This document shows, one piece after another, positions 14,136-32,798 of a stretch of 64,000 bases of DNA (positions within the stretch are counted from its first letter, which is position 1; the number at the start of each line of letters is the position of its first letter). The stretch comes from Sporolactobacillus kofuensis (GTDB lineage: Bacteria > Bacillota > Bacilli > Bacillales > Sporolactobacillaceae). Location of the stretch: NCBI RefSeq assembly GCF_024125425.1, contig NZ_JAMXWN010000008.1, positions 1 through 64,000 on the forward strand, in the 5' to 3' direction. Position numbers and translations under genes: made by a program. The notes beneath the pieces were generated by a model. It did no database searches. It was not told where the DNA came from and saw only the letters and a program-made list of their open reading frames with translations.

Positions 14136-14408
14136 ATGCATCTGTGGACTATTTTAGGTAGTTTTTTGTTTGTATGCGGATTTATTCTGATCTTGTTAAG
14201 TAAAAAGTTGTTGTTATTGAAAATCGCGCACTATATAAAGCGTCCCCAACGTTTTTTGATTGCATTAGGTATTATGTTCTTATTTGCAGGCGTGTATTCT
14301 TTTTTAGCACCTATGCTAACCGTAATGATGGGAGCAGATTTTATGATCCTCTATTATCTGGGCATTGTTGCCTGTCTGATGCTTTTGATTTTGTTTCTTC
14401 TCCCTTAA
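14136..14408 (+). CDS. Small three-pass membrane protein, unknown function
   Basis: I do not recognise this 90-residue protein. It has three hydrophobic segments (about 4-22, 40-60 and 68-89), the last at the very C terminus, with a basic loop KIAHYIKRPQR between the first two. ATG at 14136 is preceded by AAAGGTTGATGTACATCT, a weak RBS. The end overlaps the convergent Nudix gene by 4 nt. Being a clean ORF with consistent membrane topology and its own upstream space, it is probably real. Confidence 0.6.
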   Translation: MHLWTILGSFLFVCGFILILLSKKLLLLKIAHYIKRPQRFLIALGIMFLFAGVYSFLAPMLTVMMGADFMILYYLGIVACLMLLILFLLP

Positions 14409-14899
14409 CGCAGGATGTACTCAGGTATCCGACGCATTTCCGTATGGATCAAACGTTCGCCGTCGAATACGCAGTGATAGTCAGCAGGATCAGCAGTCAA
14501 ATTTTCAATCGCATCCTTCATAAAAATGCGCAAAGTAGGCACCGTTCCATAATTTTCTTCAGCAAGAATCCAAGAAATTTCTTTAAGCGCTAGAATTCCT
14601 TCACGTGTTTCCCTAGGTAAATTGATCAGATCCTCAGATTGTAAGTTTGCGACATAAAGATACATTCCTTGAATGGGTTCTCGATCCGAATTCCATGTAA
14701 CAATCCCTCGAAATAGCGGACGTTCCAATCGAATTCCAGTTTCCTCCCAAATCTCGCGAATCACACATTCTTTTGGTGATTCATCTATTTCAAGTTTACC
14801 ACCGACACCGTTCCATGCACCTTGCCAAGGCGATTTTTGACGATTAATCATCAGGATTTTATGACCGTATCTTAATAAAGCTAACGTATACTTAAGCAT
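14405..14899 (-). CDS. Nudix hydrolase (MutT-like)
   Basis: Hydrolyses a nucleoside diphosphate linked to another moiety, possibly oxidised nucleotides. The Nudix box is complete: G-x5-E-x7-REVWEE-like, seen as GKLEIDESPKECVIREIWEETG (written in parts: GKLEIDES, then REIWEETG), about residues 33-54. The N terminus MLKYTLALLRYG and GAWNGVGG match 8-oxo-dGTP diphosphatases. About 164 residues. ATG at 14899 follows GAGGTGGGG; the longer frame start lacks an RBS. Substrate not determinable. Confidence 0.85.
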   Translation of the reverse strand: MLKYTLALLRYGHKILMINRQKSPWQGAWNGVGGKLEIDESPKECVIREIWEETGIRLERPLFRGIVTWNSDREPIQGMYLYVANLQSEDLINLPRETREGILALKEISWILAEENYGTVPTLRIFMKDAIENLTADPADYHCVFDGERLIHTEMRRIPEYILR

Positions 14900-14967
14900 A
14901 TTCCCCACCTCGTCGAACATCTGTTAAGTTTGTACTTAGAAAGTATAGCAAATTTGTGACTATTGGG

Positions 14968-15032
14968 TATGTGTTAACCTTTTCGCGGTTGGGGGTTTTT
15001 GACGTTCACTTGCCATGGGCGATCTGTGAGCC
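14968..15032. ncRNA. Copy A of a 65-nt structured repeat (candidate RNA or dispersed element)
   Basis: The gap between the Nudix gene and the YdbC-like gene holds a block that recurs in inverted orientation at 47309-47373. Read on the plus strand: a TATGTG box, a hairpin AACC-TTTTCGC-GGTT (14976-14990), GGGGGTTTTT, then a second hairpin GTTCAC/GTGAGC (15004-15009 with 15026-15031) around the conserved CTTGCCATGGGCG. In the other copy the first hairpin is CACT/AGTG with nearly the same loop, so pairing is kept while sequence changes. Just beyond, GCCTGCG (15030-15036) and CGCAGGC (15082-15088) form another long-range pair. Which strand is transcribed is unknown. Confidence 0.5.
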
Positions 15033-15213
15033 TGCGCATACAAGCGAGTATCTGTGGGATCGCAATCATCAGGTACAGTCTCGCAGGCGTCTCGAACTAC
15101 ACATTCTCAATCTATTCTGTCGTTCAGAATATCATCCACTCGAGAAACTTTTTACACAGACAACGATTTGGGAGCAATAGTCTTTTGTACTCAGTCATTT
15201 ATCAATCCAAGTA

Positions 15214-15288: not shown

Positions 15289-15564
15289 ATGGCAGATTCT
15301 CATTCAGACGTAAGTTTTAACATTGTCGAGCATTTTGGTGTACTCGCAACCGAGAATAGTGGCTGGACTAAAGAACTTAATCTTGTCAGTTGGAATGCTC
15401 GCGAAGCAAAGTATGATATTCGAAGCTGGGCTCCTGATAAGAAGAAGATGGGACGCGGAATTACTCTCACGGGCACAGAATGTCATACTCTGAGGAGTTT
15501 ATTGAATACGCGATTCCCTCAATCTTCTTCTGCGATCAACGAAAATCAACAAACCGTTCAATAA
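15289..15564 (+). CDS. PC4/YdbC-family ssDNA-binding protein
   Basis: A 91-residue protein of the YdbC family, whose structurally studied Lactococcus member has the eukaryotic PC4 coactivator fold and binds single-stranded DNA. Family-like features: FNIVEHFGVLA near the start, the WTKELNLVSWN segment, YDIRSWAPD and the GRGITLTGTEC turn (about 56-66). The ATG at 15289 has GAGGTG 8 nt upstream. The Gln/Ser-rich C-terminal tail (about 75-91) may be disordered. Two LexA-like boxes precede it, so induction on DNA damage is inferred. No partner gene in the same orientation. Confidence 0.8.
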   Translation: MADSHSDVSFNIVEHFGVLATENSGWTKELNLVSWNAREAKYDIRSWAPDKKKMGRGITLTGTECHTLRSLLNTRFPQSSSAINENQQTVQ

Positions 15565-15690: not shown

Positions 15691-15719
15691 TTGACACAGG
15701 AACATGAATTCCATACACT
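15691..15719 (+). promoter_or_regulatory. Putative menA promoter
   Basis: TTGACA (15691-15696), a 17-nt spacer and TACACT (15714-15719). It would give a menA leader of about 300 nt, unusually long, containing the structured segment at 15788-15914. Confidence 0.55.
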
Positions 15720-15787
15720 GAGAATGAAAATCATGTCGAATTCATGACAATTGTTCTTGTAAAATCTAGGCTCTGATTAAATTTAAT

Positions 15788-15914
15788 GGTGTTTGTTTTT
15801 CTGACCAAATGGCAATGTGTGCGCCTGCAGAACCGTTCCTGTTGATTGGTTCCAGCGAGACTCCGTAGATCTTAACTTGTATGAAGAGGCTCGGTGCGCG
15901 CGTCAAGCAACACC
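15788..15914 (+). ncRNA. Structured leader segment upstream of menA (copy of the 30965-31112 family)
   Basis: An outer pair GGTGTT/AACACC (15788-15793 with 15909-15914) encloses two hairpins. The first is CTG-ca-GAACC with GGTTCCAG (15825-15834/15848-15855). The second is CGAG-A-CTC with GAG-G-CTCG (15856-15863/15886-15893), with one internal mismatch. The 23-nt core at 15825-15847 agrees at 21 positions with the minus-strand element at 31087-31108, and looser similarity continues for about 60 nt. It lies in the inferred menA leader. It matches no riboswitch class I recognise. Confidence 0.4.
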
Positions 15915-16022
15915 TGGTAAGAAACAATGGAAAAAAAACAGCAGATTTTAACAAAACAAAATCTAAGAAACTATGATTTTGAACAAGTTCTTCAGCATAT
16001 TTTGAAATGGGAGAGAGATAAA

Positions 16023-16937
16023 ATGGGGGAAATAAAACCAGAAAAAAATACTGGTCTGATGAAGTGGTGGAAGATGATGCGCCCACACACACTTTCTGCA
16101 TCTTTTGTGCCGGTGGCACTGGGTACTGCACTTGTTTTACCACTAAAAACACCTAATGTCACGTTATTCGCCGCAATGATGATCGCGTCGATGCTCATCC
16201 AAATTGCCACCAATTTATTCAATGAGTACTTTGACTTTAAAAGAGGACTTGATAATCAAGATTCCATAGGAATTGGCGGAAGTATTGTTCGGGATGGCTT
16301 TCATCCGAAAACGATCCTTCGTCTAGCCTTTGCGCTCTGTTTTGCAGCGATGCTCATCGGTGTATACATCTGTGCAATCAGCAGCTGGTGGATTGCTCTT
16401 GCCGGACTGATTTGTATTCTCACCGGCTATCTTTATTCCGGCGGTCCGTACCCGATTGCCTACACACCTTTTGGCGAATTGGTTTCGGGTTTATTCATGG
16501 GTGTATTCATTATTTGGATCTCATTCTATATCCAAACCGAGACACTGAGTTTGAACTGTATACTCATCTCTATTCCAATTGGTTTATTGGTTGGCGGCAT
16601 TAATATGGCCAATAATATTCGTGATTTAACCGGTGATAAGGAAAAAGGTCGCCGTACTTTACCGATCTTGCTTGGACGTCCAAAGTCTATTATTCTACTT
16701 GCCGGAATTTTCGCCTTCTCCTATGTTTGGATAATTGCTCTGATGCTGTTTGGTGTTGAATCCGCATGGCTTCTGATCGTCTTTGCCAGTTTACCTAAAG
16801 CCATTCAAGCAACTAAATTATTTCGAAATAAAACAAAAGCCATTCAACTCATGCCGGCTATGAAAGCAACAGCACAGCTGCAAACATTATTTGGTATCCT
16901 TTTATCGCTAGGGTTGGTACTTGATTATTTCATTTAA
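16023..16937 (+). CDS. menA: 1,4-dihydroxy-2-naphthoate polyprenyltransferase (UbiA superfamily)
   Basis: Membrane prenyltransferase that joins a polyprenyl chain to 1,4-dihydroxy-2-naphthoate in menaquinone synthesis. About 304 residues with eight or nine hydrophobic segments. The first Asp-rich motif appears as NLFNEYFDFKRGLD (N-x3-D type, about residues 64-77) and the second as NIRDLTGDKEKGRRT (about 201-215). The start chosen is ATG 16023, preceded by GGGAGAG; an upstream in-frame ATG at 15927 would add 32 poorly hydrophobic residues and lacks an RBS. The quinone fits the type II NADH dehydrogenase at 36 kb. A related UbiA enzyme is possible but less likely. Confidence 0.88.
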   Translation: MGEIKPEKNTGLMKWWKMMRPHTLSASFVPVALGTALVLPLKTPNVTLFAAMMIASMLIQIATNLFNEYFDFKRGLDNQDSIGIGGSIVRDGFHPKTILRLAFALCFAAMLIGVYICAISSWWIALAGLICILTGYLYSGGPYPIAYTPFGELVSGLFMGVFIIWISFYIQTETLSLNCILISIPIGLLVGGINMANNIRDLTGDKEKGRRTLPILLGRPKSIILLAGIFAFSYVWIIALMLFGVESAWLLIVFASLPKAIQATKLFRNKTKAIQLMPAMKATAQLQTLFGILLSLGLVLDYFI

Positions 16938-16992: not shown

Positions 16993-17013
16993 GACTTTGT
17001 CAATTGAATATGA

Positions 17014-17141
17014 AGTTCCTTCAGGGCAGGGTGAAATTCCCGACCGGCGGTATTGGTTAGATTGTTACCAGAGTCCGCAAGCCGAAAGGCAGATCCGGTG
17101 AGAAACCGGAACCGACAGTAAAGTCTGGATGGAAGAAGGAT
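17014..17141 (+). promoter_or_regulatory. FMN riboswitch (RFN element)
   Basis: The conserved RFN blocks appear in order: CTTCAGGGCAGGGTGAAATTCCC, here seen as TTCAGGGCAGG then GTGAAATTCCCGACCGGCGGT; then GAGTCCGCAAGCC, ATCCGGTGAGAAACCGGA and ACCGACAGTAAAGTCTGGATG followed by GAAGAAGG. FMN binding should favour the downstream terminator at 17204-17233 and so shut off ribU when flavin is plentiful. Confidence 0.98.
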
Positions 17142-17203
17142 GATGTATTAGCGTCTATTTTTTCTGCGCATAGTTTTCATTGCGCTATTATTGCGCTGAT
17201 TTT

Positions 17204-30964: not shown

Positions 30965-31112
30965 GAAAAACTGTGCAAACTGCCTATCCATAGTTTGCAT
31001 CAGTTAAGCTCCGATTGCTCGATGGACGTTGACGATCCGGGAGCTTCTTTGAACAACCAAAAATATCCAAGCTCTCCCATGGCTCGAATCAACGGAACGG
31101 TTCCGCAGAACC
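30965..31112 (-). ncRNA. Candidate structured RNA with alternative hairpins and terminator
   Basis: On the minus strand, in order: hairpin GGTTC-TGCG-GAACC (31112-31099); a stem between GGGAGAGCTT (31078-31069) and AAGCTCCC (31046-31039); a competing stem between the same AAGCTCC and downstream GGAGCTT (31012-31006); then GCAAACT/AGTTTGC (30998-30975) followed by ACAGTTTTTC, a good intrinsic terminator. The core CTGCGGAACCGTTCCGTTGATT recurs in the menA leader with one substitution and one gap. It lies between the pgi terminator and yggT, with no ORF of its own. No promoter was found with confidence; transcription is unproven. Confidence 0.45.
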
Positions 31113-31165
31113 TCGCAACTTTCCTGGATTTTAAAGTAAAAAGTCGAACACTTTCTAAAAAAAAT

Positions 31166-31200
31166 AAGAAAAGCTCTGCAAAAAGTAGCGGAGCCTTTCT
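31166..31200 (-). terminator. pgi terminator
   Basis: On the minus strand GGCTCCGC pairs with GCAGAGC (one mismatch) across an 8-nt loop, followed by TTTTCTTATTTTTTTT. Confidence 0.8.
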
Positions 31201-31228: not shown

Positions 31229-32584
31229 TTAGTGATTGAGTCTTGCTTCAAGCGTTGCTTTTTCGGACTCGTAGCCTGGTTTTCCAAGGAGAGCAAACAT
31301 ATTCTTCTTATAAGCTTCAACACCTGGCTGGTTGAACGGATTGACGCCAAGCAGATAACCGCTGACGGCAACAGCTTTCTCAAAGAAGTAGATGAGGTAG
31401 CCGAAATGATAAGCAGTCAATTCCGGAATCGTCACGACAAGTTGTGGCACTTGACCATCAGTATGGGCGAGACGAACACCTTCGGCAGCTTTCTTATTGA
31501 CAAAGTCCATCGTTTTATCAGCAAGAAAATTAAGATTATCAAGATTTTCCTTTTCCGCTTTAATAGTCACATTTTTTCTTGGTTCTTCAACAAGGACTGC
31601 CGTTTCAAACATAACACGACGGCCTTCCTGAACAAATTGACCGAGAGAATGCAGATCGGTACTAAAATCTGCTGAAGATGGATACAGTCCTTTAAAATCT
31701 TTACCTTCACTTTCACCAAATAGTTGTTTCCACCATTCGGAGAAGTAATGCAGGTGAGGTTCAAAATTGACCAACATTTCAACGGTCTTGCCTTTGTTGT
31801 ACAACACGTTCCGGACAGCAGCATATTGATAGGCAAGGTTTTTGCTCAATTCCGGTTCGCTGAAGTCATTCTGTGCGTCACGTGCACCGCTCATTAATTC
31901 ATCAATGTTAATTCCGGATACGGCAATCGGGAGAAGACCAACAGCGGTTAGCACAGAAAAACGTCCACCAACATCGTCAGGAATCACAAAGGATTCATAA
32001 CCTTCATTGTCGGCAAGGGTCTTTAGTGCACCTTTTGCTTTATCTGTTGTCGCGTATATTCTACCCTTTGCTTCTTCTTTACCGTACTTATTTTCCAAAA
32101 ATTCACGGAATACCCGGAATGCAATGGCAGGTTCTGTTGTCGTTCCCGATTTAGAAATGACATTGACAGAGACATCCTTATCCTTCAGAACATCAAATAA
32201 TTCATTCAAATAGGTCGCACTAATGCTATTTCCCGCAAAGAATACTTGCGGCGTCTTGCGTTCTTCTTTTGGCAATACATTATAAAATGAGTGATTAAGC
32301 GTCTCAATAGCTGCACGGGCACCTAAATATGAACCTCCGATGCCAATAACAATCAAAACATCCGAATCCGATTTAATTTTCTCAGCAGCTTTATTAATTC
32401 TGGAAAATTCTTCTTTATCATATGCTGTCGGGAGATCTAACCAGCCTAAGAAATCATTGCCTGCACCGGTTTTTTCATGAATTGCCTTATGAGCGGCAGA
32501 AACTTGATCCGTCAAATAATCCAACTCATGTTGTTCAAAAAATGACAAAGCATTGCTGTAATCAAAAGCAACCTTCTTGCCCAT
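31229..32584 (-). CDS. pgi: Glucose-6-phosphate isomerase
   Basis: Interconverts glucose 6-phosphate and fructose 6-phosphate. About 451 residues, the short bacterial form of Bacilli. The sugar-phosphate loop appears in [17 protein letters not shown] (about 145-161), the first signature in [17 protein letters not shown] (about 204-220) and the catalytic Glu and Lys regions in [11 protein letters not shown] (about 289-299) and [12 protein letters not shown] (about 417-428). ATG 32584 follows GGAGG with 8 nt spacing; the longer frame begins with TTG. Monocistronic. Confidence 0.97.
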
Positions 32585-32798
32585 TTCATCGGCCTCCAAT
32601 ATTTATAATCATTCCTATTTAACTGTACAAGACAGCGCTCACAATTTCAAGTCATGTTATGCTTTTCTCTCCGCTTTCCGCAAACGATTTCACAATGATT
32701 TCATTTTTTACAAAAAAAGACAAGAAAATCAAATGCATGTATAGTTGTTGGAAATAAAGGCATGCTATAGTTGCACGCACATAAAAGGAGGTACGATT

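Follow-up and report, generated by a model that had tools for sequence, protein, structure and literature searches.

The 64,000-nt stretch of Sporolactobacillus kofuensis DNA analysed here (the window; contig NZ_JAMXWN010000008.1) carries three diverged copies of a short hairpin-forming sequence that recurs across the genome and across the order to which this bacterium belongs. We hold it probable, at roughly three chances in four, that these copies belong to a high-copy, non-coding and non-autonomous mobile hairpin family of the Bacillales, in which a common core is carried in several vehicles with different ends and most copies are decaying. A covariance model of the core, R1, finds at least 149 places in the 2.96-Mb genome (E ≤ 1), three of them in the window. 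An earlier note on this DNA, made from the letters of the window, had proposed a dispersed intergenic family with one intact small-RNA copy; the dispersed family is borne out, structured and in many places arranged in tandem, and the single intact small-RNA copy is not.

Central to that proposal was the likeness of two short strings, CTGCAGAACCGTTCCTGTTGATT at 15825-15847 (plus strand) and CTGCGGAACCGTTCCGTTGATT at 31087-31108 (minus strand), which lie where the note had placed them and differ, as it said, by one substitution and one gap. Its judgement that chance is an unlikely source also holds, as the window has four matches to the pattern GGAACCGTTCC with at most one mismatch where 0.59 are expected, and none of 100 shuffles reached that number. 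A search of the whole genome with an 18-nt core pattern, allowing up to two mismatches, was among the checks that it proposed and returned only four matches; the near-identity of the two strings therefore reflects a shared subfamily insert, CGTTCCTGnTGAT, within a larger and more variable element. The sequence around two of the four genome places revealed this much larger shared element, and the 22-23-nt "core" of the earlier note, its 22 nt consisting of the insert and its left neighbour, is an island inside a structured element of about 105 nt. The note had seen the similarity continue downstream, and R1 extends the match both ways. The differently composed hairpin that the note saw at the same place in both copies agrees with the variable hairpin, P3, of the core.

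BLAST with the larger element gave 61 places in the genome, and R1 was built from an alignment (A1) of 27 own-genome copies, which includes the 15.8-kb and 31-kb copies of the window and excludes the third. The layout of the core, over some 105-115 nt, is GATGCGAGACGCCTGCGGG(A), then CGTTCCTGnTGAT in some copies, CGCGAGCCAAGTGAGACCCCGCAG, a variable hairpin and CGAGGAGGCTCACGGATCGCCCGCGGCAAGCGAGCAATCGAAGC. The best-scoring window copy is the terminator-docked form, type A, at 31008-31120 on the minus strand (84.5 bits, E 1.7e-17), followed by the core inside a MITE at 15815-15920 on the plus strand, with a decayed P2 helix (56.8 bits, E 3.2e-11), and by a copy with type B flanks at 14995-15099 on the minus strand (54.8 bits). 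The last of these had escaped the earlier note. Its whole element spans about 14968-15164, the part of the window matched in BLAST by C10:2674-2881, and sits between divergent genes, a NUDIX-like gene at 14405-14920 (minus) and another at 15289-15564 (plus). In pairwise local alignment the 15.8-kb and 31-kb copies score 35 against a shuffle maximum of 27 (n=2000); the two other pairings score lower, 27 and 16, each against a shuffle maximum of 26. Clear pairwise likeness among the three diverged copies is limited to the 15.8-kb/31-kb pair, and because its own pairwise matches are weak the third copy is assigned to the family on the R1 profile.

Among the copies listed, the flanks of the core sort into several types with different ends, for which we use our own labels A-E. 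The 149 copies merge into 127 clusters, and tandem arrays with a period of about 165-265 nt are common, nine clusters holding two copies, five holding three and one holding four. Type B copies (such as C40:122310, C23:32215 and the window copy at 14995) have long inverted arms, TGTGTAAAAAGTTTCTCGGAGGAATG and CTCATTCCGAGAAAAGCTTGACACATA, and several of them are found in gaps between divergent genes, not behind a terminator. One hybrid copy (C40:28835), type A on its 5' side and type B on its 3' side, hints at recombination between types.

Order-wide covariation supports a fold of the core into a single long, imperfect hairpin in which internal loops are conserved. Sixty-four cores from named Bacillales records were aligned, of which 55 remained below 93% identity, and the strongest covarying column pairs among these 55 include a nested set comprising the outer arms P0a and P0b, P1' (CTGCGGG/CCCGCGG), P2 and P3; correlation between neighbouring columns also lifts the pairs adjacent to the true ones to high ranks. 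Covarying helices are likewise present within the genome itself, where P2 (GCGAGCC..GTGAG with CTCAC..GGATCGC) together with P1 has 27 cells changed on both sides; shuffles give 7.6 and slid controls no more than 8. For the A1 copies alone, RNAalifold finds a weak structure and the nested pairing CTGCGGG/CCCGCGG does no better than shuffles. A pseudoknot, CTGCGGG/CCCGCAG, was considered for the same segment and set aside: it pairs in 88.9% of cells in A1, with two compensatory pairs, but is absent from the top covarying pairs order-wide, where the nested pairing has compensated changes. The mismatches left in the helices are nearly balanced, G-U to A-C being 39:39 order-wide, 28:19 for stricter pairs (a ratio of 1.0-1.5) and 63:50 in P2 of the genome's own copies, whereas FMN riboswitches of the same order under the same treatment give 21:7 (a ratio of 3.0; 27 loci long enough). 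The signature of folding on one strand, in which G-U is tolerated and A-C is not, is thus missing from the core, and we read this balance as pairing kept at the DNA level or lost through decay, which is no proof against an RNA.

The core is widespread, and its copy number varies greatly. R1 matches (E ≤ 0.001) occur in 42 of the 58 genomes searched, the present one included, with 0 to at least 64 copies per genome and 1 to at least 64 within the genus, several related genomes having none or only 1-2. An order-wide pattern of the core has at least 120 matching stretches, in Sporosarcina, Rossellomorea, Sutcliffiella, Oceanobacillus and others, Planococcus, Bhargavaea, Evansella and Psychrobacillus being also among the matches listed. 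The core pattern also matches Sporolactobacillus spathodeae NZ_JAFBEV010000033.1 (L261), whose element and leader are identical to those at G001:C33 where compared. The own-genome form of the core has no match in the plasmid and phage records searched, and with a generic form no phage record matches and 17 plasmid records do, among them records of Priestia, Peribacillus and Paenibacillus. The Bacillales repeat also turns up, at 57.5 bits, in NZ_JADHDX010000001.1 (L249), a record under the name Arthrobacter beigongshangensis, which may be mislabelled or contain a foreign contig.

Judged from its sequence, the 15.8-kb copy is an IS1595-derived MITE, with terminal inverted repeats (TIRs) shared with such elements and an 8-bp target-site duplication (TSD). 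This type E element of 189 bp, at 15769-15957 on the plus strand, holds the hairpin core and has no transposase open reading frame. Its ends are TIRs of about 23 nt, the left one GGCTCTGATTAAATTTAATGGTG at 15769-15791 (plus), with two mismatches to the genus-wide pattern, and the right one, imperfect, at 15935-15957 (minus), placed by end-to-end alignment, for which 14 copies of a relative (G001) were aligned with the window MITE, and by the flanking repeats. An exact repeat, AAAATCTA, stands on either side at 15761-15768 and 15958-15965. Exact flanking repeats of 8-9 bp are present at 13 of the 15 type E copies, the window copy among them, and absent at two. Of 15 genomes in the genus, 12 contain the TIR pattern; G001 has 98 such ends and G009 has 84, and the present genome has the pattern at six places. 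A likely partner is at hand: G006 has a pair of these ends, separated by 1.1 kb, with an IS1595 transposase of 328 aa between them and TTTAGAAT flanking the pair on both sides, and G001 has a 91% identical transposase copy with like ends and the TSD TTTAATTA on either side, while the genome under study has no IS1595 transposase at E ≤ 1e-20. A transposase like the one intact in these two relatives may have moved the 15.8-kb MITE in trans, and its source element would since have been lost from this genome. ISL3 was rejected as a type E mobiliser, PF01610 being without a match in this genome and in G001 and the ends of ISL3-type loci in relatives being different. Eighteen further MITEs were compared, nine of which hold the core (at least 69 bits) and are 180-218 bp long. 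Short MITEs of 76-98 bp consist of the hairpin arms only, and several of them have 8-bp repeats, so the core is dispensable for MITE transposition; we infer that they lost it by deletion of the hairpin tip.

This MITE entered the leader of menA. The names menA, pgi and NUDIX come from our reading of translations, the open reading frames being called with a simple script and no gene finder. Compared by eye, relatives share a promoter-like TTGACA..CATAAACT, the leader (T)GTCGAATT..TGACA and then GGGAGAGA before the menA ATG; R1 has no match in the menA/NUDIX region, which holds the other two window sites, at any of 11 relative loci. The MITE sits between the menA promoter and its ribosome-binding site, the menA ATG being at 16023. 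The earlier note had described this copy as joined to menA, and it does adjoin the gene, as a MITE inserted in the leader instead of a small RNA fused to it. Several further observations concern the same region. An in-frame ATG at 15927, supplied by the MITE, adds 32 codons to the menA open frame (15927-16022), and automatic annotation could pick it; the start in relatives is the ATG corresponding to 16023. At about 15710-15760 a conserved promoter-like TTGACA..CATACACT is followed by TGTCGAATTCATGACA, a near-palindrome common to relatives that looks like a candidate menA operator. An FMN riboswitch lies at 17013-17144 (116 bits).

The 31-kb copy has a different character. Type A is absent at the pgi site in most relatives, stands behind the terminators of genes that run in the same direction and often has a terminator-like hairpin of its own. 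In the window it lies immediately behind the terminator of a pgi-like gene (31229-32599, minus) and is co-oriented with it; by sequence reading, this terminator, AGAAAGGCTC..GAGCTTTTCT followed by a T tract, occupies 31157-31200 (minus), directly upstream of the element. At the far end, at 30966-30999 (minus), the terminator-like hairpin announced by the earlier note is indeed there, as TGCAAACT..AGTTTGCA plus the T tract CAGTTTTT. At the pgi locus of 11 relatives R1 matches weakly in three (G004, G009 and G001; 18-21 bits, E 0.005-0.02), which, compared by eye, we read as separate insertions or remnants of other types, the one in G009 running in the opposite direction. The other eight have no R1 match, one of them (G007) ending at a contig edge. 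The pgi locus of G003 shows by eye a short remnant-like stretch without an R1 match.

The placement at pgi is repeated throughout the genome. At 103 of the 127 clusters the element and the gene upstream of it share a strand, at 21 they are on opposite strands and at three the upstream gene is undefined, and in gaps between co-directional genes 71 elements run with the genes and four against them (71/75; p 7e-17). A terminator precedes 70 of the 103 same-strand clusters against 3 of the 21 opposite-strand ones and 13 of 48 element-free gene ends (p 3e-6 for 13/48 against 70/103); control counts are 29/127 on the antisense strand and 2.0 in shuffles. Of 76 T tracts, 32 end at a distance of 35-50 nt ahead of the core. 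The bias in orientation weakens beyond the genus, to 21 against 8, in a sample of 58 non-Sporolactobacillus copies of which one lies inside an open reading frame. Type A would have inserted, or survived, preferentially behind terminators, perhaps because transcription and coding are undisturbed there, and single copies would then decay.

The 31-kb copy has no IS1595-type ends, and no consistent direct repeat was found around the 163 copies tested (those of this genome and 14 of G001). An 8-mer repeat does occur at 80 of the 163, against a shuffled mean of 60.6, an excess that on inspection comes largely from tandem arrays and shared terminator sequence. With no type A target duplication, the case for mobility of the 31-kb form is its presence and absence between species and its copy number. 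G001 has the most near-identical copies and the strongest expansion, and it contains no match to the IS200/605 Y1 transposase (PF01797) or the group II maturase (PF08388), which leaves type A with no known mobiliser. A REP/RAYT (IS200/605) repeat was discarded on the missing Y1 transposase in this expanding genome, and a group II intron derivative on the missing PF08388 and on the lack of any Rfam intron model matching the core. In the present genome, a group II intron start (RF02001, 44.3 bits) was seen at L024:3052-3106 (G000:C12, about 255.4 kb), with a group II maturase match at C12:256683 and a Y1 transposase match at C12:258085 nearby.

Other explanations were weighed against that of a decaying mobile family. 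The conserved internal loops and the order-wide covariation would also be compatible with a function as RNA, and a small-RNA or structured-RNA gene family, duplicated many times and acting as RNA, could further draw on the terminator-like hairpin found by a strict finder in 36 of the 127 clusters and on a TATAAA-like sequence in the type A leader. The expected position of the -35 box falls, by our reading, within the host terminator, so there is no conserved self-contained promoter; the G-U to A-C ratio is 1.0-1.5, against 3.0 in FMN riboswitches, so that selection as RNA is not apparent in most copies; and relatives differ widely in copy number, with 0 to at least 64. No Rfam family reaches its gathering score with the window element or 10 named loci, and 12 own-genome loci give no convincing match up to E = 1. 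We therefore regard an RNA gene family as quite unlikely, and the small-RNA reading of the earlier note finds no support in view of the at least 149 copies, the lack of an Rfam match and the absence of a one-strand G-U bias. Selection could instead act on the copies as cis elements, be they back-up terminators, stabilisers of mRNA 3' ends or chromosome-folding sites, so that placement would reflect function and no preference of insertion, as the very strong bias in orientation and terminators and the conservation of the fold across an order would suggest. Against this, the sites vary by species (R1 is missing at 8 of 11 pgi loci and at all 11 for the other two window sites), several relatives carry at most two copies or lack the core altogether, and pairing decays symmetrically, as in unselected copies; such selection is, in our view, unlikely.

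The remaining alternatives concern the route of spread. Class C group II introns insert behind terminators, and their machinery, if it served an RNA copy in trans, is an example of a terminator-targeting route by which type A might have spread. The 5' ends just behind T tracts and the lack of a target duplication agree with such a route, as do the two group II maturase matches and the intron fragment match in this genome; the absence of a maturase match from G001, where expansion is strongest, and of a group II model match to the core at gathering score make it very unlikely. More speculatively, though a possibility we would keep in view, the core could be an independent selfish module of the Bacillales, present in hundreds of copies and switching vehicles, riding in IS1595-type MITEs and, as a second form, docking behind terminators along the direction of transcription, with a terminator of its own, by an undescribed route that leaves no TSD. 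If true, it would be a parasite adapted to the sole intergenic niche where it is harmless.

By analogy, the mobile hairpin family would work like ERIC, bcr1 and other MITE-type repeats, with the 31-kb copy standing apart from IS1595 MITEs. The 15.8-kb copy shares with IS1595-family MITEs its TIRs, the 8-bp TSD, the want of an open reading frame and an intact IS1595 match in the genus; it differs in having an order-wide structured core that is dispensable and is also found outside this vehicle. ERIC of the Enterobacteriaceae, an intergenic imperfect hairpin of about 100-130 bp with tens to hundreds of copies varying by taxon (PMC10969869), resembles the family by description in size, in its intergenic imperfect hairpin and in variable copy number, but belongs to another order and, as far as described, is unrelated in sequence, and type A adds strong terminator docking and tandem arrays. 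Nearer home, bcr1-bcr18 of the Bacillus cereus group, of which bcr1-3 are MITE-like, and Bhal-1 (74 bp, 36 copies) and Bhal-2 (76 bp, 50 copies) of B. halodurans are likewise intergenic, structured and dispersed repeats of the Bacillales (PMC3446304, PMC2267715); compared by description only, Bhal-1 and Bhal-2 could be the same core. BOX, RUP and SPRITE of Streptococcus pneumoniae are small repeats that cluster and insert into each other, SPRITE being terminator-like (PMC10969869), and differ, again by description, in belonging to another order. In the portions of the literature available to us, PMC3733652 and PMC4666352 among them, no order-wide family is described, and six core-fragment strings returned 0 papers in a weak search of open-access text that yielded no name for the core sequence.

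Overall, a structured repeat that occurs at least 149 times in a genome of 3 Mb and has matches in 42 of the 58 genomes of the order searched has so far no Rfam entry and no name that we could find, and it enters gene leaders such as that of menA and forms tandem arrays. For the MITE form, the IS1595 partner opens mobility to direct testing. The terminator-docked form, in turn, offers a view of how a non-coding parasite may fill a genome harmlessly.
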